64,000 nucleotides of DNA. Source: Aristolochia californica (Eukaryota > Streptophyta > Magnoliopsida > Piperales > Aristolochiaceae). The stretch covers positions 18,819,981 through 18,883,980 of the forward strand of contig JARWKL010000008.1 of assembly GCA_029961685.1 (NCBI GenBank), in the 5' to 3' direction. Shown here piece by piece: positions 15,780 through 39,987 of the stretch (position 1 is its first letter; the number at the start of each line of letters is the position of its first letter). The notes under the pieces were generated by a model, which saw only the letters and a program-made list of their open reading frames with translations, was not told where the DNA came from and did not search any database. The position numbers and the translations under genes were made by a program.

Positions 15780-16608
15780 AATATTTCCTGAAAAAATGTG
15801 CTAACATGGCCTTCTGGTTTTAGAAAGTAATTTGTTTTAGCATTAATTGCCTTACCTCAAAATTTTCCTAGTAACAATTTTTCAGCTTAAAAAGTGTTTC
15901 CTAGAAACATAAGGCAATAATAGTACCTGGAGACATATTCTTACTAGAAATACTTTTCAATGTCTCCTAAATAAAGGAACTAACAAGACCTTAGATTTAT
16001 AGAAAGTAATTTGTTTCAGCAAAAACTATCTTACAACAAAATTTTCTAGGTAAGAATTTTTAGCTTGAATAGTGTTTCCAAGAAACATGAGACATTAATG
16101 GACCCTGGACACATATTTTTACTAGAAATACATTCCCGAAGTTTCCTAAAAAAGGCAGTAACAAGGCCTTAATGATGTAAAAAGTTATTTGTTTTAGAAA
16201 AAAATTTCCTTACACCAAAATTTTCTTGATAAGAATTATCAACAATAAAAGTGATTTCTAGAAAAAATGAGGCACTAATGGTCCACAGACATGTATTTTT
16301 ACTAGAAATACCTTTCCAAAATTTCCTTAAAAAATGGCATTAACAAGGCTTTATAGTAGTAAAATGTCATTTTTTCTGGACAAAAAGCCTTATCACAAAA
16401 TTTTCCTAGTAAGAATTTTCAGCATGAAATGTGTTTCATGGAAGTTTCATGGAAATATGAGGCACTGACAGTCCAAGGAGACTTATTTTTATTAGAAATA
16501 ATTTTCCAATGTTTCCTAAAAAATACACTAACAAGGTCTTATAGTTGCATAAAGCAATTTTTTTGGCAAAAATTGCTTTACCAAAAAAGATTGTTGGTAA
16601 GAATTTTC
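15780..16608 (+). repeat. 180-bp satellite, block 1 (monomer types up to m9)
   Basis: Nearly five head-to-tail monomers. A typical monomer is 163-183 bp and runs GGCACTAATGGTCCCTGG, TTTTTACTAGAAATACTTTT, CCAACGTTTCC, a poly-A patch, CACTAACAAGGCCTTATAG, AGTAATTTGTTT, TTGCCTTACCACAAAATTTT, CTGGTAAGAATTTTCAGC and GTGTTTCCAGGAAACATGA. The types here are in the order m6-like, m7 (AATGATGTAAAAAG at 16171), m8 (TAGTAGTAAAATG) and m9 (TTTTTTGGCAAAAATTG). The block stops inside m9 where element E inserted; m1 follows on the far side of E. Confidence 0.93.
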
Positions 16609-17243
16609 TGTTAGTGTATCAATGCCCACCTCTCTCAAGTTACCATTAATGTAATGTATTCACTAGCCCCCAAGTATGAGGAGTGCCAATGTCGATAGTG
16701 AGTAATTAGTTAACGGTTCCAGCTTAGATGCTGATGAGGTCAAATTGTGATCGCAATGGTTACTTGTGAAGAACTGTAAAACGGATAGTAGGGTTCAGGG
16801 CGTCAGCCCCGACGGGGGTCTAAGAGGGCTGACCCCACGGTATGCACGTGTCACGATTGCATCACCAAGTACCAACGTGGAGGGCAGCTAGATGGCTTGC
16901 TCTACAAGCTTCCTAGATGGTGTGCTCTACAAGCTTCCTAGATGGCTTGCTCTACAAGCTTCCTAGATGGCTTGCTCTACAAGCTTCCTTCATGAAAAAC
17001 ACTTATAAATAGAGGTGTTCTTCAGCAGCATTGGAATCCAGAAAATGAGAGCTATTCCTTCTTCATTACTCTGTTTTATTGTTTAGTTTCCTCTTGTAAT
17101 TTCTGTTCAGTCCAGAAACCATTGAAGCTCTTCTAGAGCGTGTGGTGGGACGAAGTTTCTTATCGTATTTGTAATAGATCAGTGTTGGCTTTCTTCTTGA
17201 TTGCTATTTAGATGTTCCTGGGCTGAGCTTACTTTGTTTTACA
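16609..17243 (+). repeat. Element E left LTR, with four 25-bp tandem units
   Basis: Starts TGTTAG and ends GTTTTACA. At 16892-16990 a 25-bp unit containing GATGGCTTGCTCTACAAGC occurs four times. A 9-bp stretch (TGTATCAAT) follows the first six bases and is absent in the other LTR. TATAAATA at 17004-17011 is the likely core promoter, with the leader starting a little downstream. Confidence 0.92.
17004..17011 (+). promoter_or_regulatory. TATA box of element E left LTR
   Basis: TATAAATA followed by GAGGTG, conserved at 21724-21731 in the right LTR. Placed right after the 25-bp tandem units, which is where LTR enhancer repeats usually sit relative to the promoter. The start site itself is not visible. 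Confidence 0.6.
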
Positions 17244-17301
17244 TGGTATCAGAGATCTAGGGGACTCTTAACAACAATCATCTGTCGTAAAGCACAACAT
17301 C

Positions 17302-18290
17302 ATGACTGATCTTAAGCCTAGTAGCTCTACTGCTAGTTCTAGTTCTGTACTAGCAATAGGTATTCGTCCCCCAGCTTTCACAGAAGGCAAACTTGATGGC
17401 ACAAGCTATCTCCTGTGGAAGTTCAAAATCACTACGATTTTGGACTCCTATGAACTTCTTGATATAGTTCTGGGAGTTGATGCTAAACCTGTTGTTGTCA
17501 CCAATGGTGAAAAGATCACTCCTGCTAATCCTTAGCTCATCAAAGATTGGAGAAGGAAGAATGCTGATGCACTTTGTGCAATTGTCACAAGTATTCAAGA
17601 TTCTGTCCTCACCCTGATTCAACATACTTCGAAGGCGAATGAAACATGGAACATACTGAAAAATCAGTATGAAACAAGGAACCAGACTCATATCCAAAAT
17701 CTGGAAAATCAACTTGCTGCTGAAAGATTAAGTGAAGATGAGGCCGCAGAGTCTTTTATTACTAGGATGAAAAACCTACGTGATAAAATGGCTTCTGTTG
17801 GTATAGCCAAGTCAACAGAGGAACTTGCTTGAAGATGTATTCGAGTATTGCCGCAAAAATTTGACGGCCTCGTGACAGCACTCAATACACAAGTTCGTGA
17901 TCCTCCGTTGACCTTTGAAGATTTCTCTGCCTTATTGATGGAGGAGGAGATGAGGCTAAAAGGCAGAGACAATCAGTCTGACTCTACCTTCACAGCAAAA
18001 GCAAAGGTTAGCAATGAAACAAAGAAGAAACCAAATAGTAAGAAGTTCTTTGGATCGTGTTATTACTATAACAAGAAGGGCCATGCTGTCAAAGATTGTA
18101 GAACACGAATCCACGATGAGAAGAACGACACGATGAAACAAAACTGGAAGAACAGAGAATCTGCAAATTCTGCAGAAATTGAGCTTCCTCTGTTCACTGT
18201 CACAGAGGAATCATGCTCTAGTGCTCATGTACAACAAAAGAGTACATGGGTGTTAGATTTTGGAGCTTCCTGACACATGACCAGCAAGAA
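17302..18290 (+). pseudogene. Element E gag and protease start (stops at three points)
   Basis: ATG at 17302 opens MTDLKPSSSTASSSSVLA, then the copia gag core (FTEGKLDGTSYLLWKFKIT). A TAG at about 17533 and a TGA at about 17830 interrupt it; each is one transition from a CAG and CGA codon. The zinc knuckle near 18058 reads CYYYNKKGHAVKDC: the second Cys of the CCHC pattern is Tyr (TGT to TAT). Protease reads VLDFGAS then TGA at 18271, with Ser of DSG changed to Phe. All the damage is of the C-to-T or G-to-A kind. Confidence 0.88.
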
Positions 18291-19680
18291 AGAATTATAC
18301 AATTCTTTAAATCCTCTACAACAACCAATGAACGTGGTGGTCGGAAATAATGCGAGATGTCCTGTAGAAGGGATAGGCACCATATCCATTAAGTCTGATG
18401 ATGGAGAAAGTAAGAAGATAGCAGATGTTCTACTTGTTCCCCAAATCTCAAGAAACCTGTTGTCCGTAGCTGCAATTACAAACAAAGATTTGGAGGTACG
18501 GTTCAAGAAAAATGAATCTCTTATTCTTGATAAAAATGAGAACATAGTTGCAACAGGTATCCGCAGGGATAACCTTTATGAAATCAACTCACTTTCTGCT
18601 ATTGTTGATGCCAAAAATAGTCAACTTTGGCATGAAAGATTCGGACACATTTCCTTTCATATGTTGAAGGAAATGCAGAAGAAAAATATGGTGACAGATT
18701 TGCCTTCAATTGATGTAATTGAAGAACCTTGTGAAGCTTGTATGCTGGGCAAGCAACAAAGAAAGTCATTCCCAAAGAGAGTCAAAACAAATCAAAGGCT
18801 CCTTAGAGTTGGTACATGCTGATCTCTGTGGGAAAATGACTACGATGGCGTTAGGAGGATCTTTCTACTTTATGCTGTTAGTCGACGATTACAATAGAAA
18901 GATGTGGGTGTACTTCCTTCGGGACAAGGCTGATGCTCTTGCAAAATTCAAGGTGTGGCATAAGCAAGTGACAAATGAGAACGCAGCAACTGTGAAGAAG
19001 TTTTGTACAGATCGTGGGGGGGAATTCTGTTCTGCTGAATTCTCTAGCTACTGTAATTCAGTTGGCATCAAACGCCAACTTACTGCTCCACATACACCAG
19101 AACAAAATGGTGTAGTTGAACGTCGAAATCGAACGGTGGTGGAAATGGCTCGGTGCATGATAACAGGTGTTGGGCTACCAGATATGTTCTGGGGAGAAGC
19201 AATAAATACAGCAGTATATGTCCTAAATCGATGCTCCACAAAAGCATTGAATGAAAAGACTCTAAATGAGGCTTACTCAGGTATGAAACCTTCTGTGTCT
19301 CATTTAAGAAAATTTGGGTGTGAGTGTTTTGTACATATTCCCAAAGAAAAAAGAAATAAATTAGATGACAAGAGCAAGAAATGTATCTTCTTGGGTTATA
19401 GTGAAGAGTCTAAAGCATATAGACTTTATGATGTAGAGGCCAAGAAGTTAGTCATAAGCCGAGACGTTGTGTTTAATGAGCGACCACTCTCAATGGAGGA
19501 TAATGATCCTGCCATTTTGTCACCAACCGATGAAGTAACTCACCAAGTGCCTACTGAACAGCCAGTAAGTGATGAAGAAGATGTTTCTGTTAAAAAAGAA
19601 CAACAAGCCAACCAAGTGCACCCCCATGGAAGCCACAACCAAAGTGGGTGCACCAGCTCTTTGATGACAGAACTCCAGAA
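18277..19680 (+). pseudogene. Element E GAG-pre-integrase and integrase (one internal frameshift)
   Basis: 18277-18822 has the protease remainder and the pre-integrase domain (LWHERFGHIS, CEACMLGKQQ). A frameshift near 18805 moves the frame to 18719-19732, which has a nearly intact integrase: first Asp in MLLVDDYNRKMWVYF, second in CTDRGGEFCS, Glu in NGVVERRNRT. The C-terminal part has CFVHIPKEKRNKLDDKSKK and VISRDVVF. A second shift near 19650-19670 leads into the RT frame. The DDE residues are all visible. Confidence 0.9.
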
Positions 19681-21327
19681 GTTGAAGATAAAAGCCCTTG
19701 TCCTGATGGGCTTAGACGATCAAAGAGAATAGAGGAGCAGAACAAAGCAGGACAACAACTTTTGAACATGGCTTTGATGACTCAAATCATCGAGAAGGTA
19801 AAAGAACCAGTAAGTGTGGAGGAAGTCATGTCAGATCCAAAATGGAGAGCTGCAATGCAAACAGAGTATTATAGTATCATAAAGAATGATACTTGGGAGA
19901 TTGTTGACAAACCTCCTAACCGAAAGATCGTTGGCAGCAAATGGATTTGGAAAACAAAGTACAAGGCTGACGGTACTCTTGAAAAATACAAAGCACGCCT
20001 TGTTGCTCAGGGATTCTCACAAATTGAAGGTTTTGATGTTGATGAGACCTTCGCTCCAACAGCAAAGATGACAACAATTCGGGAAGTTCTTGCATCTTCT
20101 GCTCATTACGGGTGGACGGTACATGAAATGGATGTAAAGTTTGCCTTTCTAAATGGGAAACTTGAGGAAGAAGTCTACGTGCCACAACCACAAGGCTTTG
20201 AACTACCAAATGCAGAGGAGAAGGTATGTAAATTAAAAAAGGCCTTGTATGGTGTAAAGCAGGCACCACGAGCCTGGTACAAACGTATCGACTCTTTCTT
20301 TTTGGAGGGCAGGTTCTGTAGAAGCAAATCTGAAGCAAACTTATATGTTCTTTGTGAACATGAGAAAAGAGTCATTGTAGTACTCTATGTAGATGACCTG
20401 GTAATCACTGGTGACCATGAAGACAACATTGTGAAGACTCGGGAATGGTTGAGCCAAGAGTTCGACATGACAGACTTGGGCTTTCTTCATTACTGTTTGG
20501 GAATTGAGGTATGACAAAAATCTTATCATATCTTTATTTCTCAGGAACGTTATGCTCGAGAACTATTATCTACTTTTGGCATGACCGAAAGTAATCCAGT
20601 AGTCACCCCAATGGAAGTGAATACCAAGCTGTCAATCAATGACTCCTCTGAAAAGGTTGACAACAAGCTCTATAGAAAATTAGTTGGAAGTTTAATCTTC
20701 CTTTGTAACACAAGACCTCACATTAGCTATGGTGTGGGAGTGCTCAATCATTTTTCTAACAATCCAAGAAAAACGCACTGGCAAGCTGAAATGCGAATCC
20801 TCAAATATCTCAAAGGTACTTTAACTTTTGGAGTATCTTACACAAGAGGAGATATTTTATTTGGATATTGTGACTCAGATTGGGCTAGAGATCTTGACAA
20901 GAGGAAATCCGTTACTGGCTACGGATTCTTGTTTGGAAGTGGTATCATCTCATGGGTTAGTAAGAAGCAACAAATAGTTGCACTGTCATCAATCGAAGTA
21001 GAGTATAAAGCTACTTGTGTAGCAGCCTGTGAAGTTGTGTGGCTACGACGCATCTTGACTGATATAGGTATTCCTTTGACTGAGTCAACTACCTTAAATT
21101 GTGACAGTCGAAGTTGCATAGCTATGGCGAAGAACCCAGTGTTCCATGCTAGAACTAAACACATAGAAATTCAGTATCACTATGTAAGAGAACTGATTGA
21201 AGAGGAGACCATATACATGGAGTACTGCCCTATAGAAGACAACCATGTAGACATTTTTACCAAAGCACTAGGGAGTGCTCAGATGAACAAGCATCTTCGT
21301 GGCTTGGGCGTTGGCCCAAGAACATAG
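19648..21327 (+). pseudogene. Element E reverse transcriptase and RNase H (one stop)
   Basis: 19648-20514 carries the RT: DPKWRAAMQTEY, WIWKTKYKADGTLEKYKARL, FAPTAKMTTIREVL, HEMDVKFAFLNGKLEEEVY and the catalytic YVDDLVITG. A TGA at about 20513 replaces one codon after CLGIEV; the frame then continues to 21327. RNase H has GYCDSDWARDLDKRKS, LSSIEVEYKAT, the Asp in NCDSRSCIA and DIFTKALG. Removing a single stop would make the whole RT-RNase H readable, which agrees with the low LTR divergence. Confidence 0.92.
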
Positions 21328-21362
21328 TCCAACAGAGGTGAACATTGAGGGGGGGTGGGGGG

Positions 21363-21963
21363 TGTTAGCCCACCTCTCTCAAGTTACCGTTAATGTAATG
21401 TATTCACTGGCCCCCAAGTATGAGGAGCGCCAATGTCGATAGTGAGTAATTAGTTAACGGTTCCAACTTAGATGCTGATGAGGTCAAATTGTGACCGCAA
21501 TTGTTACTTGTGAAGAAACTGTAAAACAGATAGTAGGGTTCGGGGCGTGAGCCCCGATGGGGGTCTGAGGGGGATGACCCCACTGTATGCACGTGTCACG
21601 ATTGCATCACCAAGTGCCAACGTGGAGGACAGCTAGATGGCTTGTTCTACAAGCTTCCTAGATGCCTTGCTCTACAAGCTTCCTAGATGGTGTGCTCTAC
21701 AAGTTTCCAACATGAAAAACACTTATAAATAGAGGTGTTCTTCAGCAGCATTGGAATCCAAAAAATGAAAGCTATTCCTTCTTCATTACTCTGTTTTATT
21801 GTTTAGTTTCTTCTTGTAATTTATGTTCAGTCCAGAAACCATTGAAGCTCTTCTAGAGCATATGGTGGGACGAAGTTTCTTATCGTATTTGTAATAGATT
21901 AGTGTTGGCTTTCTTCTTGATTGTTGTTTAGATGTTCCTGGGCTGAGCTTACTCTGTTTTACA
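21363..21963 (+). repeat. Element E right LTR, with three 25-bp tandem units
   Basis: Starts TGTTAGCCC and ends GTTTTACA, then duplication TTTTC. The 25-bp unit is present three times (21634-21710), one fewer than in the left LTR, which with the 9-bp difference accounts for the 34-bp length gap. TATAAATA at 21724-21731. Confidence 0.92.
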
Positions 21964-24900
21964 TTTTCTGGTAGAAAAGTGTTTCCAGAAAACATGAGGC
22001 ACTAATGGTCCTTGGAGATGTATTTTTACTAGAAATACTTTTCCAAAATTTCTTGAAAAAAAAAATCTCTAACAAAACCTTATAGTTGTAGAAAATAATT
22101 TGTTTCAGGAAAGTTATCCAAGTAACAATTTTCTGCCTCAAAAGTGTTTTCTAGGAAACATGACACACTAATGGCTCATGGAGATGTATTTTTACCAGAA
22201 ATACTTTTCCAACATTTCTTGAAAAAGAAATATCTAACAAAACCTTATAATTGTAGAAAATAATTTGTTTCAGGAAAGTTATCCAAGTAAGAATTTTCTG
22301 CCTCACAAGTTTTTTCTAGGAAACATGACACACTAATGGCTCATGGAGATGTATCTTTACAAGAAATACTTTCCCAATGTTTCATGAAAAAATGCACTAA
22401 CAAGGTCATATAGTTGTAGAAAGTATTTTGTTTCAGCAAAATTTTTCTAGTAAGAATTTTCTGCTTGAAAAGTGTTTCCAGGAAACATGAGGCACTAATG
22501 GCCCCTGCAGATATATTTTTACTACAAATACATTTCTAGTGTTTCCAAAAAAAATCCACTAACAAGGCCTTATAGTTGTAGTAAGTAATTTGTTTCATAA
22601 AAAAAATATCTTTACCACAAAATTTGTCAGGTAAGAATTTTCAACTTGAAAAATATTTCTAGGAAACATGAGGCAATAATGGTCCCAAGGGTCATATTTT
22701 TCCAATCTTCCTAAGAAAATGCACTAACAAGGCCTTATAGTTGTAAAAAGTAATTTGTTTTAGCAAAAATTGTTTTCCCACAACAGTTTCTTGGTAAGAA
22801 TTTTTAGCTAAAAACTTTTTGCCAAGAAACATGAGGCACTAATGGTCCCTCGAGACGTATTTTTACTAAAAATACTTTTTGAATATTTTCTGAAAAATTG
22901 CACTAACTAGGCATTGTGGTTGTAGAAAGTAATTTGTTTTCGCAAAAAAAGCCTTACATCAAAATTTTCCTTGTATGAATTTTCAGCTAGAAAAGTGATT
23001 CTAGGAAATATGAGGCACTAATGGTCCCTAGACATGAAATTTTACAAGAAATTCTTTTCCATCGTTTCCTGAAAAAAATGTACTAACAAGGCCTTGTAGT
23101 TGTTAAAAGTAATTTGTTTAAGCAAAAAATTCCTTAAAACAAAAATTTTCGACAAGAAAAGTTATTCATGAAAACTTGAGGCTTTAATGGTCTTGGACAT
23201 GATTTTTTTTTTCTAGAAATAATTTTCCAGCTTTTTCTTAAAAATTCATTAAGAAGCCTTTATAGCAGTAAAAATTAATTTTTTTCAACAAAATTTGCCT
23301 TTTACAACATTTTCCTAGTAAGAATTTTCAGCTTGAAATGTGATGAAAATATGAGGCACTGATGGTCCATGGAGATGATTTTTTAGTAGAAATACTTTTC
23401 CAGCGTTTGCTAAAAAAATACACTAACAAGGTCTTATAATTGCAAAAAGCAATTTTTTTGGCAAAAATTGCTTTACCAAAAAAAGAATTTTGGTAAGAAT
23501 TTTTGGTAGAAAATTTTTTCTAGAAAACATGAGGCACTAGTGGTCCTTGTAGACGTATTTTTACTAGAAATACTTTTCCAACATTTCCTACAAACAAATC
23601 ACTAACAAAGCCTTATAGATATAGAACATAATTTGTTTCAGCAAAGTTTTCCAAGTGAGAATTTTCTGCCTGAAATGTGTTTTCCAGAAAATAAGATGCA
23701 CTAATGGTCCATGTATACGTATTTTTACTAAAAATATTTTCCCAATGTTTCTAGAGAAAATGCACTAACATGGTCATATAGTTGTTGAAAAAAATTAGTT
23801 TCAACCAAAATTTTCTTGTTTGAATTTTCAGCTTGAAAAGTGCTTCCAGGAAACATGAGTCACTAATGGTCCCTGGGAATGTATTTTCACTATAAATAAA
23901 TTTCTTAGGTTTCCAAAAAATGCACAAACAAGGCCTTATAGTTTAAGAAAGTAATTTATTACATAAAAAAAATCCTTACCACCAGAAATTCCATGGTAAG
24001 AATTTTCAACATGAAAAATGTTTCTTGGAAACATGAGGCAGCAATGGTCCCAAGGGTCATATTTTCACTAGTAATATTTTTCCAACATTCCTAAAAAAAT
24101 CCAGTAACAAGGCCTTATAATTGTAGAAAGTAATTAGTTTCTAAAAAAACTACTTTACCATAATAATTTCCTGGTATTAATTTTTAGCTAAAAAAGTTTT
24201 TCAAGGAAACATGAAGCACTAATGGTCCCTTGAGACATATTTTTACTAAAAATACTTTTCAAAAATTTTCTAAAAAAATGAACTAACAAGGCATTGTGGT
24301 TGTAGAAAGTAATTTGTTTTCGAAAAAATCCTTTCAAAAATTCCCTGGTAAGAATTTTAAGCTAAAAAGGTGTTTTTAGGAATGTGGCACTAATGCTCCC
24401 TAGAAATTTAATTTTACAAGAAATAATTTTCCAATGTTTCCTAAAAAATATGAACTAACAAAGCCTTGTAGTTGTTAAAAGTTATTTATTTCTACAAAAA
24501 TTGCCTTACAACAAAATTTTCATAATAAGAATTTTCAGCTTGAATAGAGTTTCTAGGCAACATGAGGCACTAATGGATTCTGGAGAAGTATTTTCACTAG
24601 AAATACATTTCCAAAGTTTCCTCAAAAAGGCAGTAACAAGGCCTTAATGATGTAAAAAGTAATTTCTTTTATAAAACATTTTGATACACCAAAATTTTCC
24701 AGGTAAGAATTTTAAACAAGAAATGTGATTCCTGGAAACATGAGGCACTAATGGTCCCTGGACACATATTCTAATTAGAAATACTTTTCCAATGTTTCTA
24801 GAAAAAAGGCATTAACAAGGCTTAAAAGTAGTAAAATATAAATTTTCCAGGAAAAATTGCCTTATTACAAAATTTCCCTCATAAATTTTTTCAATTTGAA

Positions 24901-26050
24901 AGGTTTTTCATGGAAATATGAGGCACTAACGGTCCATTGAGATGTATTTTCAGTAGAAATACTTTTCCAAAGTTTCCTAAAAAATACATAACAAGGCCTC
25001 AAAGTTGCAGAAAGAAATTTGTTCCAACAAAAAATGTATTACCAAAAAAGATTCTTGGTAAGAATTTTCAATTAGAAAAGTGTTTTCAGAAAACATGAAG
25101 CATTAATGGTCCTTGGAGATTTACTTTTACTGGAAATACTTTTCCAACGTTTCCTAAAAAAATCACTTTCAAAACCTCCTAGTTATAGAAAGAATTTGTT
25201 TCAACAATGTTTTCCAAGTAAGAATTTTCTACATGAAAAGTGTTTTCCATGAAACATGAGGTACTAATAGTTCATGGAGACGTACTTTTACAAGAAATAC
25301 TTTCCCAACATTTCTTGAAAAAATGCACTAACAAGGTCATATAGTTGTAGAAAGTAATTTTGTTTAAGAAAAAAATTTCTAGTAAGAATTTTCATCTTGA
25401 AAAGTGTTTCCAGGAAATATGAGGCACTAATAGTCCCTGTAGACATATTTTTCCAAGAAATACATTTCCAGCATTTCCAAAACAAATGCACTTACAAGGC
25501 CTTATAGTTGTAGAAGGTAATTTGTTTCATAAAAAAATATCCTTACCACAAAATTTCCCTAATATTAATTTGCAACTTGAAAAATGTTTCTAGGAAACAT
25601 GAGGCTGTAATGGTCTCAAGGGTCATATTTTTACTAGAAATATTTTTTCAACATTCCTAAAAAAATGCAATAACAAGGCCTTATAGTTGTAGGAAGTAAA
25701 TTGTTTTAGAAAAAAAATGTTTTACCAAAATAGTTTCCTGGTAAGAATTATCAGCTAGAAAAGTTTTTCCAAAAAACATGGGGCACTAATGGTCCCTCTA
25801 GACAAATTTTTACTAAAAATAATTTTTGAACATTTTCTTAAAAAATACAAAAAAGAGGGCTTGTTGTTGTAGAAACTATTTTTTTTTCGCAAAAATTGCC
25901 TTACCTCGAATTTTCTTGGCAAGAATTTTCAGCTAGGAAAGTTTTTCTAGGGAATATGAGGCACTAATAGTCCCTAGGGAAGTAATTTTACTAGAAATAC
26001 TAACACGGCCTTATAGTTGTTAAAAGTAATTTATTTCAGCAAAAGTTGCT
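21964..26050 (+). repeat. 180-bp satellite, block 2 (about 23.5 monomers, nine-monomer order)
   Basis: The longest uninterrupted block. By diagnostic words the monomers run m1 (duplicated), m2, m3, m4, m5, m6, m8, m9; m1 to m9; m1 to m6. m1 has CAAAGTTTTCCAAG; m2 GGTCATATAGTTG; m3 CATAAAAAAATATCC; m4 GTCCCAAGGGTCAT (22681, 24046, 25612); m5 a cttGTGGTTG or GTTGTTG form with TTTTCGC; m6 TAGTTGTTAAAAG; m7 AATGATGTAAAAAG (24646); m8 TAGTAGTAAAAT; m9 the ATTCTTGG or TTTTGGCAAAAATTG form. In the first round m7 is absent and m1 doubled, so the length stays the same. The block ends inside m6, where A-c inserted. Confidence 0.93.
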
Positions 26051-26505
26051 TGTTGGAAGATAGGGCTCAAGATCACATGACCAAGGAAGGCCAACATATC
26101 TAAGAGTATTATAAGATGCGCCAAATGACCAAAGAAGGCCCACAAGATGGGCCCAAGCCCATAAGAAGTAAGACCCACAATGATTACCATGAGCTGGCAT
26201 CCTTATCGCATCAATTGGAAGATGGCATCCTTATCACATCAATTGGAAGATCAAGGACTCAAAAAAGTATCTTTATCTAATGGTCACGTCCTACAAGAGT
26301 TTAGTTTGAGTTAGGTTTGTCTTTTATCTATATTGAGTTATTTAATTATGCTAGGACTTATCTTTAAGTGTTAGAGTTTGGGTGTAATTGAGACAATTAG
26401 TATTATTGTAATTGGACTCTACCACCTTTCTCTATTATAAATAGAGGTTCATGTACTTTGATTATAATAATTCCATGAATTTTTTTCTTTTCCATAAATT
26501 CAAAA
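26051..26505 (+). repeat. Family A left LTR (A-c)
   Basis: TGTTGGAAGATAGGG to ATAAATTCAAAA (terminal CA mutated to AA). Contains a local duplication of CATCCTTATCACATC at about 26200-26245. TATAAATA at 26436-26443. Confidence 0.9.
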
Positions 26506-26517
26506 TGGTATCAGAGC
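26506..26517 (+). promoter_or_regulatory. Primer binding site of A-c
   Basis: TGGTATCAGAGC immediately after the left LTR, the complement of initiator tRNA-Met. The same site, altered, is seen in A-a, A-d (TCGTTCAGAGC), A-e and A-f. Confidence 0.9.
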
Positions 26518-28335: not shown

Positions 28336-28768
28336 TGTTGGAAGATAGGGCACAAGACCACACGACCAAGAAAGGCCCACGTATCTAAGAGTATTATAAG
28401 ATGGGTCAAACGACCAAAGAAGGCCAACAAGATGGGCCCAAGCCCATAAGAAGTAGGAACCACAATGATTACCATGAGCTGGCATCCTTTTCACATTAGT
28501 TGGAAGATTAAGAAGGATTCAAGAAAGTCTCTTTATCTAATTGCCACGCCCTACAAGAGTTTTGGTTTGAGTTAGGTTTGCTTTTAACTATATTGAGTTA
28601 TTTAATTATGCTAGAACTTGTCTTTAAGTGTTAGAGTTTGGGTATAATTGGGAGAAAGGTAGTTTTATTGTAATTAGACTCTACTACCTTCCTCTATTAT
28701 AAATAGAGGTTCATGTACTTTGATTATAATAAGTCAATGAAGTTTTTATCTTTTCCATAAATTCAACA
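28336..28768 (+). repeat. Family A right LTR (A-c)
   Basis: TGTTGGAAGATAGGGC to ATAAATTCAACA, 433 bp, preceded by GAATGGGAG as the polypurine tract. Confidence 0.9.
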
Positions 28769-31680
28769 TTGCCTTACAACAAAATTTTCCTAGTAAGATT
28801 TTTCAGCTTGACAAGTGTTTCCAGAAAACATGAGGCAATAATGCCCCCTGGAGATGCATTTTTACTAGAAATACGTTTTCAAAGTTTCCTAAAAAGGCAC
28901 AAGGCCTTAATGATGTAAAAAGTTATTTTTTTATGAAAAAATTGCCTTACACCAAAATTTTGCAGGTAAGAATTTTCAAAAGTGATTCCTGGAAACATGA
29001 GGCACTAATGGTCCCTGGACACGTATTTTTACTAGAAATAATTTTCCAATGTTTATTGAAAAAAGGCATTAACATGGCCTTATAGTAGTAAAATGTAATT
29101 TTTTTCAGCAAAAAATGCCTTATCACAAAATTTTCATGGTAAGAATTATTTAGCTTGAAAAGTGTTTCATGGAAATATGAGGCACTCACGGTCCATGGAG
29201 ATGTATTTTTAGAAAAAATACATTTTGATCATTTATTTAAAAAATGCACTAAAAATTCCTTATAGTTGCATAAATTAATTTGTTTCAGCAAAAAATGCTT
29301 AACCAAATATGATCCCTGGAGAGAATTTTCAGGTTGAAAAGTGTTTCCAAAAAATATCAGGTACTAATGGTCCTTGCAAACATATTTTTACTAAAAATAC
29401 TTTTCCAACATTTCCTGAGAAAAAAAATCACTAACAAAACCATATAGTTATAGAAAGTAATTTATTTTAGCAAAGTTTTCCTAGAAAGAATTTTCTTCCA
29501 GAAAAGTATTTTTTTGGAAACATGAGTAACTTATGGTCCATGGAGACGTATTTTTACTAAAAATAGTTTGCCAGTGTTTCCAGAAAAAAATGCACTAATA
29601 GGTCATTTAGTTTTAGAAAATAATTTGTTTCAACAAAGTTTTTCTTGTAAGAATTTTCGGCTTGAAAAGTGTTTCCAGGAAACATGAGGCACTAATGGTG
29701 TTTGGAGACGTATTTTTACTAAAAATATATTTCCAGCATGTCCAAAAAAATTCCCTAATAAGGCCTTATAGTTGTATAAAGTAATTTGTTTTATAAAAAA
29801 ATATCCTTACCACAAAATTTCCCTGGTAATAATTTTCAACAAGAAAATTTTTTCTAGGAAACATGAGGCAGTAATGGTCCCAACAATCGTATTTTTACTT
29901 GACATACCTTTCCAACGTTTCCTTAAAAATGCATTAACATGGCCTTATAATTGTAGAAAGTAAATTGTTTTAGCAAAAATTGCTTTACCACAATAGTTTA
30001 CTGGTAAGAATTTTTAGCAAGAAAATTTTTTTCCAGGAAACATGATCACAACATATTTATACTAAAAATAATTTTCAAATATTTCTTTTAAAAAATTCAC
30101 TAATAAGGCCATATCGTTGTAGAAAGTAATTTGTTTTATCAAAAATTGACTTTCCTCAAAATTTTCTTGATAACAATTTTCCATTTCAAAAGTGTTTCTT
30201 GGAAACATAAGGCACTAATTGTGCTTGGAGACGTATTTTTACTAGAAATACTTTTCTAATGTCTCCTCAATAAAGGCACAAAAAGGACCTTATAGTTGTA
30301 GAAAGTAATTTGTTTCATCAAAAATTGCCTTACAACAAAATTTTCCAGGTAAGAATTTTACTCTTGAATAGCTTTTCCCAGAAACATGAGGCACTAATGG
30401 ACCATGGAGCCATATTTTTACAAGAAATAAATTTCCAAAGTTTCCTAGAAAAAGGCAATAACAAGGCCTTAATGATGTAAAAAGTTATTTGTTTCTGATA
30501 AAATTTCCTTACACCAAAATTTGGTTGTAATAATTTTCAAAGTGAAAAGTGATTCTTGGAATCATGAGGCACTAATGGTCCCTGGATATGTATTTTTACT
30601 AGAAATACGTTTTCAATTTTACTGAAAAAAGGCATTAACAAGGCTTTATAGTAGTAAAACGTAATTTTTTCTGCAAAAATTGCCTTTTTACAAAATTTTC
30701 TTGGTAAGAATTTTCAACTTGAAAAGTGTTCCATAGAAATGTGAGGCACTGAAGGTTCATGGAGACATATTTTTTTTAGAAATACTTTCCAACGGCTCCT
30801 AAACAAATACACTAACGAGGCCATATTGTTGCGAGAAGCAATTTTTTTGACAAAAAATGATTTACCAAAAAGGATTCTTGGAAAGAATTTTCAGGTAGAA
30901 AAGTGTTTCCAGAAAACATGAAGCATTGTGGACCTTGGAGACATATTTTTTCTAGAAATACTTTTCCAACGTTTCTTTAAAAAAAACTAACAAATCCTTA
31001 TAGTTATAGAAAATAATTTGTTTTAGCAAAGTTTTCCAAGTAGGAATTTTTCTGCCTAAAATTTTTTTTCCCGAAAACAAGAGGCACTATTGGTAGATGG
31101 AGATGTATTCTTACAAGAAATACTTTCACAAAGTTTCCTGAAAAAATGTACTAACAAGGTCATATAGTTGTAGAAAGTAATTTGTTTCAGCAAAAATTTT
31201 CTAGTAAAAATTTTCAACTTGAAAAACTGTTTCCAGGAGATATGAGGCATGAATGGCTCCTAGAGATGTATTTTTACTTGAACAACATTTCCAGCTTTTC
31301 CAAAAAAATGCACTACCAAGGCCTTATAGTTGTAGAAAGTAATTTGTTTCATAAAAAATATCCTTACCAAAAAAATTCCCAGGTAAGAATTTTCAACTTG
31401 AAAAACGTTTCTAGGAAACATGATGCATTAATGGTCCCAAAGGTCATATTTTTATTCAATTTAATTTTCCAACGTTCCTAAATAAATGCACTAACAAGGC
31501 GATATAGTTGTAGAAAGTAATTTGTTTCAACAAAAAAAATTTTACCACAATAGTTTTCTGGTAAGAATTTTCAGCTAGAAATTTTTTTGAAGGAAACATG
31601 AGGTCCCTCGAGAGGTATTTTTACTAAAAATACTTTTCGAAAAATTTCTGAAAAAATGCACTAACAAGTCCTTGTTGTTG
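28769..31680 (+). repeat. 180-bp satellite, block 3 (about 16.5 monomers)
   Basis: Continues the nine-monomer order from where block 2 stopped: remainder of m6, m7 (28909), m8 (29085), m9, m1, m2, m3, m4 (29876), m5, an m6-like monomer, m7 (30471), m8 (30651), m9, m1, m2, m3, m4 (31433), and the first half of m5. It stops at TCCTTGTTGTTG, where copia B2 entered. The m7-to-m7 and m8-to-m8 distances here are 1562 and 1566 bp. Confidence 0.93.
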
Positions 31681-31684
31681 AGGG

Positions 31685-31894
31685 GGATATAGGATGACAT
31701 TTATATGCATCAACCACCTCGGTAAGTGGTTAAGGGGGAGTCCGTACGTCGACTACAAAAATCTCTTTATGGTCTCAAACCATGCACGAGGTGACCGTTT
31801 GGGACCATAACGATATTTTTGTAGTCAACATACGGACTCCCCATCAACCACATACCCAGGTGGTTGCTGCATATATATGTCCTCCTTTATATCC
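31685..31894. repeat. Inverted repeat (foldback) at the broken end of copia B2
   Basis: Arms 31685-31780 and 31797-31894 (96 and 98 bp) with a 16-base spacer. Both arms are the RT segment that in B1 lies at about 13650-13760. Reading the right arm outward on the minus strand, the RT sequence goes on through TGCATGGTTTGA and then turns back, copying its own complement (GAGACCATAAAG). The turning point has a TTTGA-type microhomology. By eye the arms differ at about 10-15% of positions. Confidence 0.85.
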
Positions 31895-34653
31895 CATTCA
31901 GACCATTTTTTTGCATTAAGTTGATAGACTTGCCAGGAAGAGTTAGCCGCGAGAGATAAAAACAAACATACCTAGTATAATTTAGCCACTGGAGACAAGG
32001 TTTCTTCATAATCAATGCCATTACATCATGTATAGCCTTTAGCAACAAGGCAATCTTTTAACCGAGCCAAAAACCCATCCGGATTGTGTTTCACAGTAAA
32101 TACCTATTTGCAACCGACGAGTTTCTTATATGAAGGAAGGGGGACTAAAGCCCATGTCTGATTTTCATAAAGGGCCTACATTTCTTCATCCATAGCCGCC
32201 TTCCACCGTGGATGTTAGAGAGCCTCATGATAGGACTGTGGTACAAGTACGGAGGAAATAACCAATAGAAATTGACAACAAATAGGGGATAAATGATGAT
32301 GAGACACAAAATTTGTTATTGGATGAGAAGTAGGCATGGTGCAGCTCTTTCCTAACTGCAATAGGACGAGTATCATATTTTGGGCCAAAATTAATCGAAG
32401 AAAATGGACTTACCTCGGTAGGATCTAACAACTCAGCAGGTGTGGTGTCAGCCAGTGTTTCTGGGGGCTAAGTAGTTTCTGCAACATGGGGCACAACCAA
32501 TCGAGGAGAACCTGGTACTAAAGATAAACCTGGAGGAGCATTATCAGAATAATATAGAGATTCTTCAAAAACAATGACATCCCTAGACACAAGTAAACGC
32601 TGAAGAGAGGTATTATAGCAAATATAACACTTTTGTGTGTGAGAGTATCCTAAGAAGATACACTTCACAAATTTGGCATCAATTTTACTATGTTTATCAG
32701 AGAAAATATGGACAAAACATTGATAGCCGAAGACTCTGAAGGGCAGTGAAAAAGGATCATCATCAGGTAATAATAGAGAGTAAGGAGATTTTTTACCAAG
32801 AATGGAAGAGGGTAACCGGTTTATAAGAAAACATGCGGTAAGAACTGCATGAGGCCAATAAAAGTATGGAACTTGCATAACATATAGTAAACTATGAGCT
32901 ACCTCAAGAATATGACGGCTCTTCCGTTCGGCTACACCATTTTGTTGAGGGGTGTAGGCCATTTTCTTGATAAAACGAGTCAAGATCTTTGGATGTGTCT
33001 TCTTTGGCATTATCTGACCGAAGGACTTTAATTTTCTGCCCAAACTGAGTGAGTACCATTGCATCAAAAGATTAAAATATCAATGGTATTTCAGAATGTT
33101 CTTTAAACAAAAATAACAAAGTGGTATGAGTGAAGTCATCAATGAATGTAATAAAATATTTCATTTGAGAAATGTTGGAGACACTCAAGGGTCCCCATAC
33201 ATCAGTATGAATTAACGAAAAGGAGAGACACTTTTAATTTTTGGACAAGGTGAGTATGTAGACCTTTGATGTTTACTCATTTGACATGCTTCACAATGAA
33301 GGTCAAACCACGCTTTAGGAAAAATATGATGAAGAGATTGGGCGGACGGATGTCCCAACCGGTTTTGCCATAACCTGGTCTCAGTGTCACGGGTGGATGC
33401 AGTATTTATTTGTGGCACATCAAGTTAGTAGAGCCCCACTTGTTCACAGCCTCCACCAATCACCTGCTTCATTGTAAGATCCTAAAACACACATGAAGTG
33501 GGTGAGAAAGTGATAGAGCAATTAAAATGTTTGGTGAGCCGACTAACTAATAAAAGATTCAAAGGGAAAGTAGGAACGAAAAGGATATCAGTGAGAGAAA
33601 GTGATGGTGTAACAGAAATGGATCCGTTCCTTTGAACTTTATTTTGTGAACCTTCAGCAATGGTAACAAACTTATGTGAAAGACATGGAGAAAGGGAGTA
33701 TAGTAGATGTTTGTTACCTATAAGATTCTTGGAGGCTCCTGAGTCAATTATCAAGGATGAAGAGGAGGCAAAAAAACATACCTGAAGCGGTGGTGGCAGT
33801 GGTTGGAGAAGAAGTACTTGGGATGGACCCCATCATGGTTTTAATTTTCTAGAACAGTTCATAGTCTTCATAAGTAAGTGTATTCTTTGCAGTTGTTGTG
33901 GTAGACTGCTCTACTTTTGTATCACTCACTAATTCTTGGTTAACCTTATTCTCATTAGCTTTATAACATCTTTCATGAGAGTGGCCCAATCTACCACATA
34001 TAGAGCATTCCTTCAGGTGAAAGCATGTTTCTCTAGTGTGGTCATATCCCTTACAATGGGTGCATTCCTTCCCATCTATTTGGTCAAAACTCGTTCGTCT
34101 ACCTCTACATCTTCCACCTCTATAAAATTTACCTCTGCATTGGCCTTGGCCTTGGCCTTGGTCAAATGGTGTTCCCCTATGTCCAGAGTACATAGCGGAT
34201 GGTATTTTAGTAGTAGAGGGAGAAGCATCTGGAATACGAAAAAATGTAGCACATACATCATCAAAAGGAACTGCGGAAGAGCTAAGGTGAGTCTTAACAA
34301 CTTCAAGATGCGGTTTAATGTTAGCAAGGCATATGGAAGTTATCAAGGCCTCTTCTATTTATCTTGGATAGAGATTGGTTGGGCAAGTTTCTATTCTTAA
34401 AGAAATCCTCTAAATCGAGCCAAATATTCATGTATAGTGTCCCCTTGTTTGGTGGTAAGCATCTGTTATAAAATATCTTATGGCCTTTGTAAGTTGTCGG
34501 CACTTGAATACAACTTGGCACATGTATCCCAAATTTTTTTATCCGTCTGTAGGTGAATGACATTATTGGAGATATGTTCTTCCATACTGTTGATATGCCA
34601 ACTAATAACCAATGTATCCTTCTTTAACCATTTGGTATAGAATATAATATCTT
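31895..34653 (-). pseudogene. Copia B2 gag (C-terminal), protease, integrase and RT start (broken)
   Basis: Minus-strand order: 33849-34346 gag with two intact CCHC knuckles (CTHCKGYDHTRETC and CSICGRLGHSHERC); 33482-33754 protease (IIDSGASKNLI); 33212-33418 pre-integrase (LWQNRLGHPS, CEACQMSK); 32468-33067 integrase C-terminal half (YTPQQNGVAERKSRH, YWPHAVLTACFLINRLPSS, CIFLGYS, LVSRDVIVFEES); about 32225-32460 linker; 31895-32225 RT N-terminus with ETLSPVAKL-like and LSLAANSSW pieces. Frames change several times and the catalytic YVDD part of RT is absent. The knuckles and protease motif are better preserved than in B1. Confidence 0.87.
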
Positions 34654-35096
34654 TGTTGGAAGACAAGGCTTAAGCCCACACGACCAAGGAAGGCCCACAT
34701 ATCTAAGAGTATTATAATATGGGCCAAATGACCAAAGAAGGCCCGTAAGATGGGCCCAAGCCCATAAGAAGTAGGACCCTCAATCATTACCATGAGCTGG
34801 CATCCTTATCACATCAGTTGGAAGATCAAGAGGGACTCAAGAAAGTATCTTTATCTAATGGTCACGTCCTAGAAGAGTTTTAGTTTGAGTTAGGTTTGTC
34901 TTTGATCTATATTGAGTTATTTAATTATGCTAGGACTTATCTTTAAGTGTTAGAGTTTGGGTGTAATTGGGACAAGGGTAGTTCTATTGTACTTGGACTC
35001 TACTACCTTTCTCTATTATAAATAGAGGTTTATGTACTCTGATTACAACAAGTTAATGAAGTCAATGAAGTATTTCTCTTTTTCATAAATTCAACA
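34654..35096 (+). repeat. Family A left LTR (A-d)
   Basis: TGTTGGAAGACAAGG to ATAAATTCAACA, 443 bp, same length as its partner. Confidence 0.9.
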
Positions 35097-36856
35097 TCGT
35101 TCAGAGCAGGTTCTGTGAGTTCACGTTGTCAACCCACTGAGGTAATGTGATCCTTTTCTCTAAACCCTAAACCGTAAGTCTAGGTTCATAGTTATATTTT
35201 TTTCAGTCCCTACACCCAAAATTTTTTTTGCATTTTCCACCTCTTTACTGAGATTTACATATGCAAAATATATATTGGCGAAAAGATATTTGAGTCTTCT
35301 TTTGAAATAAAACTATTCTTTCAAATCAGAGTTATTTACAGAGAGATATCAATATTTGAATGACCGAAGATCAGATTGAAAAAAGGTTTGAGCAACAACA
35401 GCAAGCTTCTGCTTCCGTGGTATTTTATGCTATCAAGAACTAGATTTGGATAAATATATAAAAAAAAAAATATTTAAGTCTATTATTTTACCTATTCAAC
35501 CAATTTTTTTATCTGAGTTATCTACAAAGATAAATTGATATTTGAAGTAGCAAAGGTTTGATTGCAAAAGAGGTTCGAGCAGTAGCAGAAAGCTTCAATT
35601 TCTAAGGTATTTTTTTATATCAAGAAAGAGACTTTATTGGAGAATTATATATCAAAAGAAAGATACGTAAGTCTATTTTCTTAAATATTCAACCAATTCT
35701 CGCCATGTGTTTGTTTTAAGGAGATATTGATCTTGGAAGAGTCAATGCTTATTCTGTAAAAAAAGGAGAAACAATACTTAGTTCGGTAAGATGATAGAGA
35801 CAGAAATCTATCAAATTATTTATCTGCTGATAATTATATTTTATGAAGAGAAGTTATACTTGGATTAAAGATATTTAATTATATTTTCATAAGAAGAAAA
35901 TTTCATGTCAATCTGATCTATATTTAAATAAACATTCTCATTGGAAGAATCAAAGGCTATGTTGGTATTCTGTTGTATTGAAAAATCCAAATTTATGCCC
36001 ATTTTTTGCGTCACTTTTTAATTTGATTTATTAAGAAAATATCTCACTTCTCCCTGGTTTGAGGGCTTATTTATACATCTCTATTTTTTTGGCTTATTGC
36101 TACATCTATGATATTTGGTTCAAGTTGGGATCACTGCCATTACCTCTCAGCTTGAGGGGGAGAAGTACAAGAAGTACAAGAAAAAGGTATTTTATTCCTT
36201 ATGTTGTGGATGAGTTTATGTGACCAAAATATTCAAGAAAAGGGGAGCACAAAAGATGAAGCTTTTGCATCTAAGAAAAAATATTTATATCGGATTATGA
36301 TTATTTCATGGGTCCTTCTACAAGGTTTATTATTTTGGCTCATGTTATATGTGTTGCAAGATGGTCGTGTTATATTCAGTTGTAGCTACTATGTCTCTTT
36401 GGGGACATTATTATTGAAGAAGAGGTGACCTCATATTATCATTTATTTCATCCCCGTCAAAAAGATCAAAATTATTTTTGGTTAGGGTTCCATGACGAAG
36501 GAACTTCATCCCCATCAAAAATATCAAAATTGTTTGTGGTTGGGAGTCTATTACGGAGGAACTTCATCCTAGTCAAAAAATCAAAATTATTTGTGGTTGG
36601 AAGTCCATGATGGAGGAACTTCATCCCCGTGACAATATCAAAATTATTTGTGGTAGGAAGTCCATGATGGAGGAACTTATTATGGCATCTATGTTATACC
36701 CCCCTGAATTGGCTAGTTGGGTCTCAAGGAAGAGAGCACTAGCATGAGGGAGTGTTGGAAGATTGTAGGATAGCCATTTTATACAAAATGATCATATACA
36801 TCATTTTGTCGGAAGCTAGGAGTTCTTGATGTTCTCTCACCCCCATCTTGAGGGAG

Positions 36857-37299
36857 TGTTGGAAGATAGGGCTCAAGCTCACATGACCAAGGAAGACCCA
36901 CATATCTAAGAGTATTATAAGATGGGCCAAACGACCAAAAAAGGCTCACAAGATGGGCCCAAGCCCATAAGAAGTCGGACCCATAATGATTACCATGAGC
37001 TGGCATACTTATTACATCTGTTGAAAGATCAAGAAGGACTCAAGAAAGTATCTTTATCTAATGGTCACGTCCTAGAAGAGTTTTAGTTTGAGTTAGGTTT
37101 GTCTTTGATCTTTATTGAGTTATTTAATTATGCTTCGACTTATCTTTAAGTGTTAGAGTTTGGGTGTAATTGGGACAAGGGTAGTTTTATTTTAATTGGA
37201 CTCTACCACTGTCCTCTATTATAAATAGAATTTCATGTATTCTAATTACAAAAATTTAATGAAGTCAATGAAGTATTTCTCTTTTCAATAAGTTCAACA
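36857..37299 (+). repeat. Family A right LTR (A-d)
   Basis: TGTTGGAAGATAGGG to ATAAGTTCAACA, 443 bp, followed by duplication ATCTT and then copia B2 gag. Confidence 0.9.
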
Positions 37300-37466
37300 A
37301 TCTTCATCAATATGTGATCCACTGTTGGTGAGATGACCAAGTAGGTCCTTTTGGTGATAAGAAACCGACGAACAGATTTGGACCAGTTCATAAAATTTGA
37401 TACCCCCCATAAGGGTACAGTGGTGACTATGAGGTCATTCTTGTGACTCATATTATCTTCAGCCAT
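37300..37466 (-). pseudogene. Copia B2 gag N-terminus
   Basis: Starts MAEDNMSHKNDLIVT at 37466 on the minus strand, continues GVSNFMNWSKSVRRFLITK, the usual opening of a plant copia gag, and runs into the A-d LTR. Its continuation lies left of A-d (34478-34653, KDTLVISWHINSMEEHIS). 37467-37950 is the leader between LTR and gag; I see no other feature in it. Confidence 0.8.
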
Positions 37467-37950
37467 AGTAGTAAAATCAAGTACAATAGTTTTCCAATCA
37501 AGTAATCAAAATATGACCAAGTGGAAGGCTATAACCAACTTCATTAATGGCGATGCTTAGAAAAATGCTAATTAATTAATTTGAATGGATAATTACTCAT
37601 AAAATGCTCAACATAATCCTTCTTATCTAGGAATCTTGTTCCCAAAGATTTATTAAAAAATCCAATATGAACTGGTCTCGGTCAAAGTATTATGCAAACT
37701 GATAATCTCTTCTAATCGAAGATAATCCAAGATGCATATTTTCTCGTAATTTCATAAGATGAAAACATGCATAAGGACATCTCTAAATCACTTCTTAATA
37801 CTGAAAAATATTAGCATAAAATTAATAATATAAAAAATAAATACTTATCTCATGAGCTTCAATCTTGCTTCATAAGGAGCCTTCTATGAGCAGCTTTTAA
37901 TCATATCTTCATAGAGCATAATGGGGATCCTAAATTTGTAGCTGATACCA

Positions 37951-38061
37951 TGTTGAATTTAGGACCCCATGAATAATACCTCGAGCAAGGGGAGAGAGAA
38001 ATAAAAATGAAAAAAGAGAAAAGCTCTCGGGTAGAGAGAGAAGAGAAGGAAAATAAGGGAG

Positions 38062-38097
<36 letters not shown>

Positions 38098-38553
38098 TTC
38101 ACACGAGAGAGGAGAAAAAAAAAGAAACTTGCTTGATATTTCCGAGTTACAATCACCCCTATTTATAGTTGAGGAGGTGATAGAGTCCATGTACAACTAA
38201 CCTTAGGACTCCTAATTACATTCCAACTAGAACTCTCTAAGATAAGCCTATTATTATAAGATTACATTAATTTATTAAAAATACTAACTCCTTATTTAAG
38301 CACGTGAATCAAGTTAGAGAGCCAGCTCCTGGTCTTATCTTGTGAATCTCATATGATCTTCCAGCTCATGAAGATAGAGGTACCAGCACGTGGTATCTTT
38401 GTGGGTCCCACTTCTAATCTTATACTCTATTTCAGCACATGTTCCTTATCTCTTAGCTCGAGCCAATTTGTATGAAGACTCTTGTTGACATCTCTCGAGC
38501 TCGTGGTGGGTCCCACCTACTTGTGTGCCCATGGTGAGTCACACATTATAACA
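37951..38553 (-). repeat. Copia B2 5' LTR (family C LTR)
   Basis: 603 bp, TGTTGAATTTAGGACCC at the left to CACATTATAACA at the right; on its own strand TG...CA. A primer site, reverse of TGGTATCAG, abuts it on the left. It holds a GA/CT microsatellite (38065-38094). This copy, free of insertions, shows the empty site for TRIM 2. Confidence 0.9.
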
Positions 38554-39987
38554 ATTTGTTTTCGCAAAAATTGCCTTACCTCAAAATTTTCCTAGAAAGA
38601 ATTTTTAGTAAGAAATGTGTATCTAGGAAACATGAAGCATTAATAGTCACTAGAGATGTAATTTTATTAGAAATAATTTTCCAAAATTTCTTGAAAAAAA
38701 TGTACTAATAAGGCCTTGTAGTTGTTAAAAGTAACCTTTTTTCATAAAAAAATGCTTTACATCAAAATTTTCCTGGTAAGAATTTTCAACTGGAATAGTG
38801 TTTCAAGGAAACATGAGGCACTAATGGACCCTAGAGACGTATTTTTACTATAAATATATTTTCAAAGTTTCTGAAAAAAGGTATTACCAAGGCCTTAATA
38901 ATGTAAAAAGTTATTTGTTTCAGAAAAGATTTCCTTTCACCAAAACTTTCTATGTAGAAATGTTCAACAATAAAAGTGATTCATAGAAACACGAGGTATT
39001 AATGGTCCCCTGAAATGTATTTTTACTAGAAATAATTTTTTAGTTTTCCTGAAAAGAGGCATTAACAAGGGTCTATAGTAGTAAAATATGATTTTTTTTA
39101 GCAAAAAAATGCCTTGTTACAAAATTTTCCTTGTAAGAATTTTCAGCTTGAAAAGTGTTTCATGGAAATATGAGGCATGGACAGTCATTGAATTTGTATT
39201 TTTAGTAGAAATATTTTTCCAACGTTTCTTAAAAAAAATACATTAACAAGACCTTATATTTGTAGAAAACAATTTTTTTGGCAAAAATTGCTATTCCAAA
39301 AAAGATTTTTGGTAAGAATTTTTAGGTAGAAAACTGTTTCCAGAAAACATGAGGCACTAATGGTCCTTGGAGACATATTTCTACTATAAATACTTTTCCA
39401 ATGTTTCCTCAAAAAACAATTCATAAAAAAAAACCTTATGGTTATAGAAAGTAATTTGTTTTAGCAAAGTTTTCCAAGTAAGAATTTTCTGCTTGAAAAG
39501 TGTTTTTACTATAAATACTTTGACAACGTTTCCTGAAAAAATGCACTAACAAGGTCATATAGTTGTAGAAAGTAATTTGTTCCAACAAAATTTTTCATGT
39601 AAGAATTTTTAACTTGAAAAGTGTTTCCAAGAAACATGATATACTACTGATCCCTAGAGACACATTTTTACTAGAAATACATTTACAATGTTTCCAACAA
39701 AATGTACTAACAAGCCCATATAGTTTTAGAAACTAATTTGTTTCATCAAAAATATCTTTCTCACAAAATTTTCATGGTCAGAATTTTCAAAAAGAAAAAA
39801 TGTTTCTTGGAAACATGCGGCAGTAATGGTCCCAGGGTCGTATTTTGACTAAATATTTTTTTCCAACGCTCTTGAAAAAATGCACTAACAAGGCCTTATA
39901 GTTGTAGAAAGTAATTTGTTTCAGCAAAAATTATTTTACCACATTAGTTTCCTAGTAAGAATTTTCAGCTAGAAAAGTTTTTTTCCT
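38554..39987 (+). repeat. 180-bp satellite, block 4
   Basis: About eight monomers: rest of m5, m6, m7 (AATAATGTAAAAAG, 38897), m8 (39078), m9, m1, a shortened m2, m3, m4 (39828) and the start of the next. The junction m1 to m2 has lost the unit boundary (about 80 bp). Ends where A-e begins. It is the last block that clearly follows the nine-monomer order. Confidence 0.9.

Follow-up and report, generated by a model that had tools for sequence, protein, structure and literature searches.

A probable relic array of a nine-monomer higher-order repeat in a satellite of Aristolochia californica

Satellite arrays organized in higher-order repeats (HORs) are already known from the flanks of human centromeres and, in homogeneous form, from several plants, as described in the reports considered here (PMC9549924, PMC4053949, PMC12046899, PMC12321929). 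In the human report, divergent HORs are those with more than 10% divergence within the array, and L1 insertions are described as frequent in dead arrays and very rare in live ones (PMC9549924). Models of HOR formation invoke unequal exchange or break-induced replication (PMC8997354). In the literature compared, plant HORs have been described from young, homogeneous arrays. In switchgrass, the reported centromere HOR is composed of six 175-bp monomers and a truncated one (1,131 bp in total), and 5.5 copies were found in one read (PMC4053949). We analyzed a 64-kb stretch of Aristolochia californica DNA (contig JARWKL010000008.1; hereafter, the window), which carries a tandem satellite with a consensus of 176 bp. 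An earlier note, made from the letters of this DNA, had claimed that nine monomer types of the satellite recur in a fixed cyclic order, and that this register continues across three large insertions. Both claims were borne out, and the array is probably a relic (divergent) HOR array.

A search profile was made from monomers excised from the window itself. It gave 140 matches in the window, 114 of which are on the plus strand and lie within 15779-56671; the weak minus-strand matches (26 of the 140) were excluded. The plus-strand matches form nine stretches, including a scrap of 43 bp, and outside 15779-56671 no plus-strand profile match was detected in the window at an E value of 0.01. The left part, 15779-39982, gave 56 matches, which became 54 monomers after two monomers split by insertions were merged. 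These follow one cyclic order of nine types (m1 to m9) for about six rounds, in which m7 is absent once and m1 is doubled once (Table 1). The loss and the doubling both fall in round 1, where the earlier note had placed them. The nine-mer block measures about 1.55 kb and is formed by nine related repeats of 160-180 bp each.

The order was analyzed by a lag test, which is blind to the type labels. For this test, 106 monomers were used (53 in the left part), and the eight of the 114 plus-strand matches that span fewer than 110 profile columns were omitted. In the left part, the mean identity was 0.796 at lag 9 (z 9.0) and lag 18 (z 8.0) relative to 1000 order shuffles. Lags 8, 17, 26, and 27 were also elevated (z 4.4-5.0), as predicted from one missing and one doubled monomer, whereas the remaining 24 lags up to 30 showed mean identities of 0.740-0.754. 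In a self-alignment at the monomer level, 42 pairs were chained at lags 8-9 from 16081 to 39982, with a score of 2.29 against a maximum of 0.91 in 300 shuffles. When the insertions were removed, matches of 14-base words exceeded all 100 monomer-order shuffles at distances of 1520-1579, 2920-2939, 3080-3119, and 4640-4679 bp. Thus, the peak near 1.55 kb, which had been set beforehand as a test, was obtained.

The insertion-free steps between successive monomers of one type were 1366, 1565, 1542, 1557, and 1532 bp for m4, 3108, 1547, 1557, and 1562 bp for m7, and 1543, 1564, 1535, 1568, and 1563 bp for m8, and the steps claimed previously for these three types agree with them to about 10 bp. The diagnostic words were searched on the plus strand with up to two mismatches. 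The m7 word AATGATGTAAAAAG was found at 16171, 24646, 28909, 30471, and 38897, as claimed. The m4 word GTCCCAAGGGTCAT was found at 22682, 24047, 25613, and 31434, and nowhere else. At the two further places assigned to m4, 29876 and 39828, m4 monomers do exist (m037 at 29856 and m056 at 39809), but the word is absent from them even when three mismatches are allowed.

The type labels were set by hand from clusters and cyclic position, allowing for a single loss and a single doubling. Neither the lag test nor the chain test uses these labels, and the tree and the gap marker described below use them for counting only. In the left part, the identity between monomers of the same type was 0.822 (136 pairs), against 0.746 (1295 pairs) between different types; a second pairwise aligner gave 0.830 and 0.765, respectively. 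The best partner was of the same type for 53 of the 54 monomers (49 of 54 with another pairwise aligner), whereas the maximum in 10000 shuffles was 16; since the labels were hand-set, this count is not blind. The type consensuses are mutually 80-90% identical, and therefore the nine types were already distinct at the time of amplification. The earlier note had expected clades in cyclic order in a monomer tree. Eight of the nine types fell on one side of a branch as single clades, five of them with starred support, but m6 was split into two clades. A marker independent of identity scores was provided by a 17-bp gap, which is present in all seven m1 and all six m2 monomers (13/13) and in none of the other 41 left monomers. 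The same gap also occurs in 12 of 52 right-hand monomers; across the satellite, it is therefore not confined to m1 and m2.

Three insertions, E, A-c, and B2, interrupt the nine-mer, each present in one round only. Their sites differ: E lies in m9 at profile column 167, A-c in m6 near column 130, and B2 in m5 near column 100. The lengths of E (5355 bp plus 5) and A-c (2718 bp plus 5) agree with those given previously. All three had been described as long terminal repeat (LTR) elements. This description holds for E, with its copia domains, LTR pair, and target duplication, and for A-c, which has an LTR pair and a target duplication matching at four of five positions, although no Pfam match was found in the four open stretches of at least 90 amino acids in A-c. 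B2 is a rearranged copia-type fragment with a nested element of family A, and at the borders of B2 itself no target duplication was seen. At the B2 site, the profile match ends at column 100 and restarts at column 109. Beside these missing columns, the start of B2 is palindrome-like: 212 bp at 31684-31895 match their own reverse complement (83%), which may reflect breakage and repair where B2 was inserted. Both LTRs of E contain a 25-bp tandem repeat, about four copies at 16888-16989 and about three at 21633-21708. The 120 best matches of the E polymerase are 40-68% identical, and none among the matches listed is named Aristolochia. The left edge of the array at 15779 adjoins DNA (15263-15779) with a 77% match to the region at the right end of B2 (37951-38467); therefore, the array is probably bordered here by another insertion rather than by its natural end.

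Table 1. Coordinates of the satellite rounds, insertions, and related repeats in the window
Feature	Position	Strand	Remarks
Round 0, partial: m5 (truncated) m6 m7 m8 m9	15779..16613	+	
Insertion E, copia-type LTR element (Pol_BBD, gag_pre-integrs, rve, RVT_2)	16609..21963	+	TTTTC 5-bp target duplication on both sides
Round 1: m1 m1 m2 m3 m4 m5 m6 m8 m9	21964..23519	+	m1 doubled, m7 missing
Round 2, complete m1-m9	23522..25085	+	
Round 3, complete m1-m9	25088..29347	+	m6 interrupted by A-c
Insertion A-c, LTR element	26051..28768	+	LTR pair; target duplication 4/5 (TTGCT/TTGCC)
Round 4, complete m1-m9	29352..30909	+	
Round 5, complete m1-m9	30911..39340	+	m5 interrupted by B2
Insertion B2, rearranged copia-type fragment with nested A element	31681..38552	-	approximate ends
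A element nested in B2	34654-37299		target duplication ATCTT on both sides
Round 6, partial: m1 m2 m3 m4	39342..39982	+	
Truncated A-family element	39989-40854		within 39983..41694
Unassigned DNA with 43-bp satellite scrap (40855-40897)			within 39983..41694
8 satellite monomers	41695..42948	+	outside nine-mer register, not placed in long-period repeat
Long-period repeat copy 1, ~23 monomers	44938..48819	+	
Long-period repeat copy 2	48464..56671	+	overlaps end of copy 1
Interruption of copy 2: A LTR fragment and adjoining DNA	~48820-49162		
Interruption of copy 2: DNA with copia RVT_2 pieces	~51387-55023		
Family A copies	2070-3429, 10412-13232, 26051-28768, 34654-37299, 39989-40854, 42949-44871, 48818-49077, 59123-59552		

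The copies of the nine-mer are about 82% alike; that is, same-type monomers differ by about 18%, which is above the 10% that marks divergent HORs. Between rounds 1, 2, 3, 4, and 5 steps apart, same-type identities were 0.819, 0.821, 0.814, 0.836, and 0.827 (44, 36, 27, 18, and 10 pairs). No gradient with round distance was detected (r = +0.09; 85% of 2000 round relabellings at or below this value). Since identity does not fall with distance, there is no sign of homogenisation between neighbours, and the array is not homogenised as expected of an active plant centromere.

The Kimura two-parameter (K2P) distance between rounds was 0.205 (135 pairs). The LTR pairs gave smaller values: 0.067 for E, 0.105 for A-c, and 0.099 for the A element inside B2 (0.068, 0.105, and 0.099 with the exact ends set by the target duplications), and their BLAST identities with gaps counted were 90.5%, 85.0%, and 90.7%, respectively. 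Thus, if an equal clock is assumed, the amplification came first and these three elements were inserted later, so that they would be younger than the array, as in divergent HORs. LTR pairs in the left flank gave K2P distances of 0.148 (gypsy) and 0.102 (another A). The decay from the type majority was 0.085, against 0.062 for ten LTR copies of family A, a comparison that gives no independent date. The spectrum of changes in the satellite is broadly like that of the same ten copies, with transversions more frequent.

The satellite continues to the right (41695-56671), beyond insertion DNA (39983-41694) that conceals the junction of the two domains. Here, 56 of the 58 matches were used for the phase and chain tests, and two scraps were omitted. 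The nine-mer register was sought in the four right-hand arrays and rejected: the best-phase p values were 0.17, 0.92, 0.99, and 0.32, with scores of 0.002-0.009. Three phase controls from the left domain, which had no shuffle control of their own and slightly different centring, scored 0.035-0.068 at the expected phase. Lag 9 gave z values of 1.7 and 1.2, so that the nine-mer was undetected in the right domain, and the chain of the right domain against the left stayed within the shuffles (0.099, with the 95% point at 0.170). Lag 22 was strongest (z 5.1 on identity), followed by lag 4 (z 3.7), and a local duplication of four monomers was observed at 46060-47306. Copies 1 and 2 of the long-period repeat are colinear over 23 monomers at lags 21-24, with a score of 0.561 against a maximum of 0.386 in 300 shuffles, and define a period of about 4 kb seen in two copies. 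The chain exceeded the maximum of 100 shuffles in all 12 parameter settings. Its ends were identical in ten (two of these also using lags 26-27), and of the other two settings, one gave a longer chain and one only a block of six monomers at lag 27. Along the chain, 21 of the 23 pairs were usable for the gap marker: two were short in both copies, 16 long in both, and three discordant (Fisher p 0.08).

With two copies and this weak agreement of the gap marker, the right domain may be either a two-copy HOR or one large duplication. We give about even chances to a satellite with a single large tandem duplication, rather than a HOR with more copies. Only two copies are seen, their lags drift between 21 and 27, and the monomers at 41695-42948 hold no third copy (0.068, with the 95% shuffle point at 0.109); nothing decisive speaks against a single duplication, and two copies cannot separate the two readings.

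With about 18% decay between its copies, the array is unlikely to be live and homogenised. Plant centromeres are described as usually consisting of tandem repeats with HORs together with LTR retrotransposons (PMC12371157), and HORs are reported to be widespread in plants and animals (PMC4053949); a live centromeric array that tolerates high divergence and carries CENH3 would fit such descriptions. However, this is quite improbable here, as the copies show no sign of current local homogenisation, the satellite occupies only 18385 of the 40893 bases of the block, and CENH3 in Arabidopsis is reported to occupy those arrays that are most homogeneous (PMC12321929). A similarly aged heterochromatic block away from the centromere, either knob-like or interstitial, is conceivable, though we regard it as rather doubtful. 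Among four species of Salicaceae, three are reported to have their most prevalent satellite arrays off the centromere, with HORs and without a CENH3 peak (PMC12046899). No direct evidence speaks against such a block; the decayed HORs described in human lie in centromere flanks (PMC9549924). The periodicity might also be an appearance produced by unrelated local segmental duplications, without any true HOR, and the right domain does carry duplications at several lags (4, 22, 24, and 27). This is very hard to reconcile with the left chain of 42 pairs, with the single clades of eight types, and with the distribution of the 17-bp gap, and for the left domain it is effectively refuted.

Several observations weigh against a simple relic of one burst at a centromere. 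Nothing in the window fixes the position on the chromosome, and the 64 kb contain no homogeneous younger array for comparison. The m6 monomers of rounds 0 and 4 form one clade and those of rounds 1, 2, 3, and 5 another, and the m5 monomers of rounds 0 and 4 pair weakly (95/72). These results suggest that the amplification was not one clean burst: HOR variants pre-existed or exchange continued for a while. The doubled m1 of round 1 is probably a later local event (its two copies are 91.8% identical). At the m7 deletion, the expected chimeric monomer gave only a weak signal: a switch from m6 to m7 improves the fit of m012 by 9.5 log units, which ranks seventh of 108 neighbour comparisons and is reached by 2.5% of 648 control comparisons. 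With a signal this weak, we did not retain chimeric monomers as evidence of unequal exchange. B2 lacks an LTR pair of its own and is hence undated. Moreover, the ratio of transitions to transversions is 0.81 in the satellite and 1.11-2.25 in the LTRs; as the satellite is relatively richer in transversions, the equal clock is not assured.

A separate observation is that the m6 (and weakly the m5) variant shared by 15779-16613 and 29352-30909 hints at two HOR haplotypes four rounds apart.

For the relic array, the following course may be proposed. An array of ~177-bp monomers, including a 160-bp subtype without the 17 bp, would have drifted until neighbours were 10-20% different. Next, either out-of-register exchange or break-induced replication would have amplified a nine-monomer segment in tandem to six rounds or more, and a separate event would have duplicated a stretch of ~23 monomers in the neighbouring part of the array. 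After homogenisation ceased, all rounds may have decayed in parallel to about 82% identity. LTR elements would have integrated later, two of them with ordinary target duplications, and for this reason the register continues across the insertions. This order of events supposes an equal clock. The earlier note had called such arrays typical of centromeric or pericentromeric satellites; a centromeric location, now or formerly, is plausible, although plant satellites with HORs are also found elsewhere (PMC12046899). More tentatively, the two domains might record a magnoliid centromere (probably of Aristolochia) that expanded in layers, in which the nine-mer and the ~23-mer, without a common register, would be decayed layers side by side, and the inserted LTR pairs would date the stop of homogenisation in each. 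If so, they would be a plant counterpart of the human relic alpha-satellite layers, legible at divergences that the usual HOR callers ignore.

No match was found in Rfam at gathering thresholds. Neither three satellite words (19-20 letters each) nor their reverse complements occurred in the full-text literature searched, which leaves most subscription journals outside, and no description of this satellite was found among the listed matches on Aristolochia centromeres, satellites, or genomes. One 20-base satellite word had a single match in each of four bacterial contigs from metagenome-assembled genomes, which we take as chance, and none in viral contigs. Short dyads are about twice as dense in the satellite as in shuffled sequence (14.5 and 15.5 against 7.6 and 7.7 per kb); in transposon DNA, the densities were 8.1 and 6.2 per kb, respectively. 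The fold of the consensus was unremarkable (z -1.47). A covariation analysis considered three dyads, two of which are the same 3-bp hairpin, and none was paired above expectation, although this is a poor test. Because the copies are non-independent, the fold unremarkable, and the covariation test poor, we make no claim on dyad symmetry.

The window contains eight or more copies of the LTR element family A, whole or partial, some of them directly in the satellite. No Pfam match was found in the open stretches scanned, and the family is possibly a non-autonomous element that prefers this DNA. In the copy at 42949-44871, the first 243 bp recur at the opposite end at 88.5%; as this end repeat is inverted, it is not a normal LTR pair. 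A Ty3/gypsy element with coding on the minus strand and an LTR identity of 86.7% lies at 4873-10209, nested in another element. Its stop-free polymerase piece (7071-8162, minus strand) matches an Aristolochia californica protein at 94% over 258 amino acids, and the next match, among those listed, is at 65%. So close a match, although from one protein, indicates Aristolochia or a near relative as the host, of which the E polymerase gave no hint. Outside the satellite, 1-2061 contains about three tandem copies of a unit of about 670 bp, about 86% alike. Just past the right end of the satellite, a foldback-like element of 657 bp (56678-57334) matches its own reverse complement at 82%.

Among the plant systems described, the switchgrass HOR resembles the present one in monomer length and in joining several monomers, including a shortened one, whereas its arrays are reported as long and homogeneous (PMC4053949). 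The Arabidopsis CEN178/CEN180 satellite has a similar monomer (about 178 bp) and HORs, with ATHILA retrotransposons reported in the centromeres (PMC11410651), but the HORs described there are mostly of two or three monomers, with CENH3 on the most homogeneous arrays (PMC12321929). In Salicaceae, the centromeric Palv156 and the non-centromeric Palv148 are likewise satellites with HORs; in Palv156, unlike in the present array, similarity is reported to be negatively related to distance (PMC12046899). The HORs there were called with TRASH at maxdiv 5 (PMC12046899), a setting that would probably miss an array like the present one. That the nine-mer keeps its order despite 18% divergence suggests that ancient amplification units remain readable well beyond the end of homogenisation, for which inserted LTR elements may serve as a rough clock. 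A close counterpart is found in the dead alpha-satellite HORs of human centromere flanks (PMC9549924). These differ in sequence and kingdom, a hypermutable phase has been proposed for them (PMC9549924), and the present array is known from the 64-kb window alone. Both, however, consist of fixed-order multimers with more than 10% divergence, in small arrays with transposon insertions (PMC9549924). Searched genome-wide, such fossils could reveal whether plant centromeres, like those of humans, expand layer by layer.

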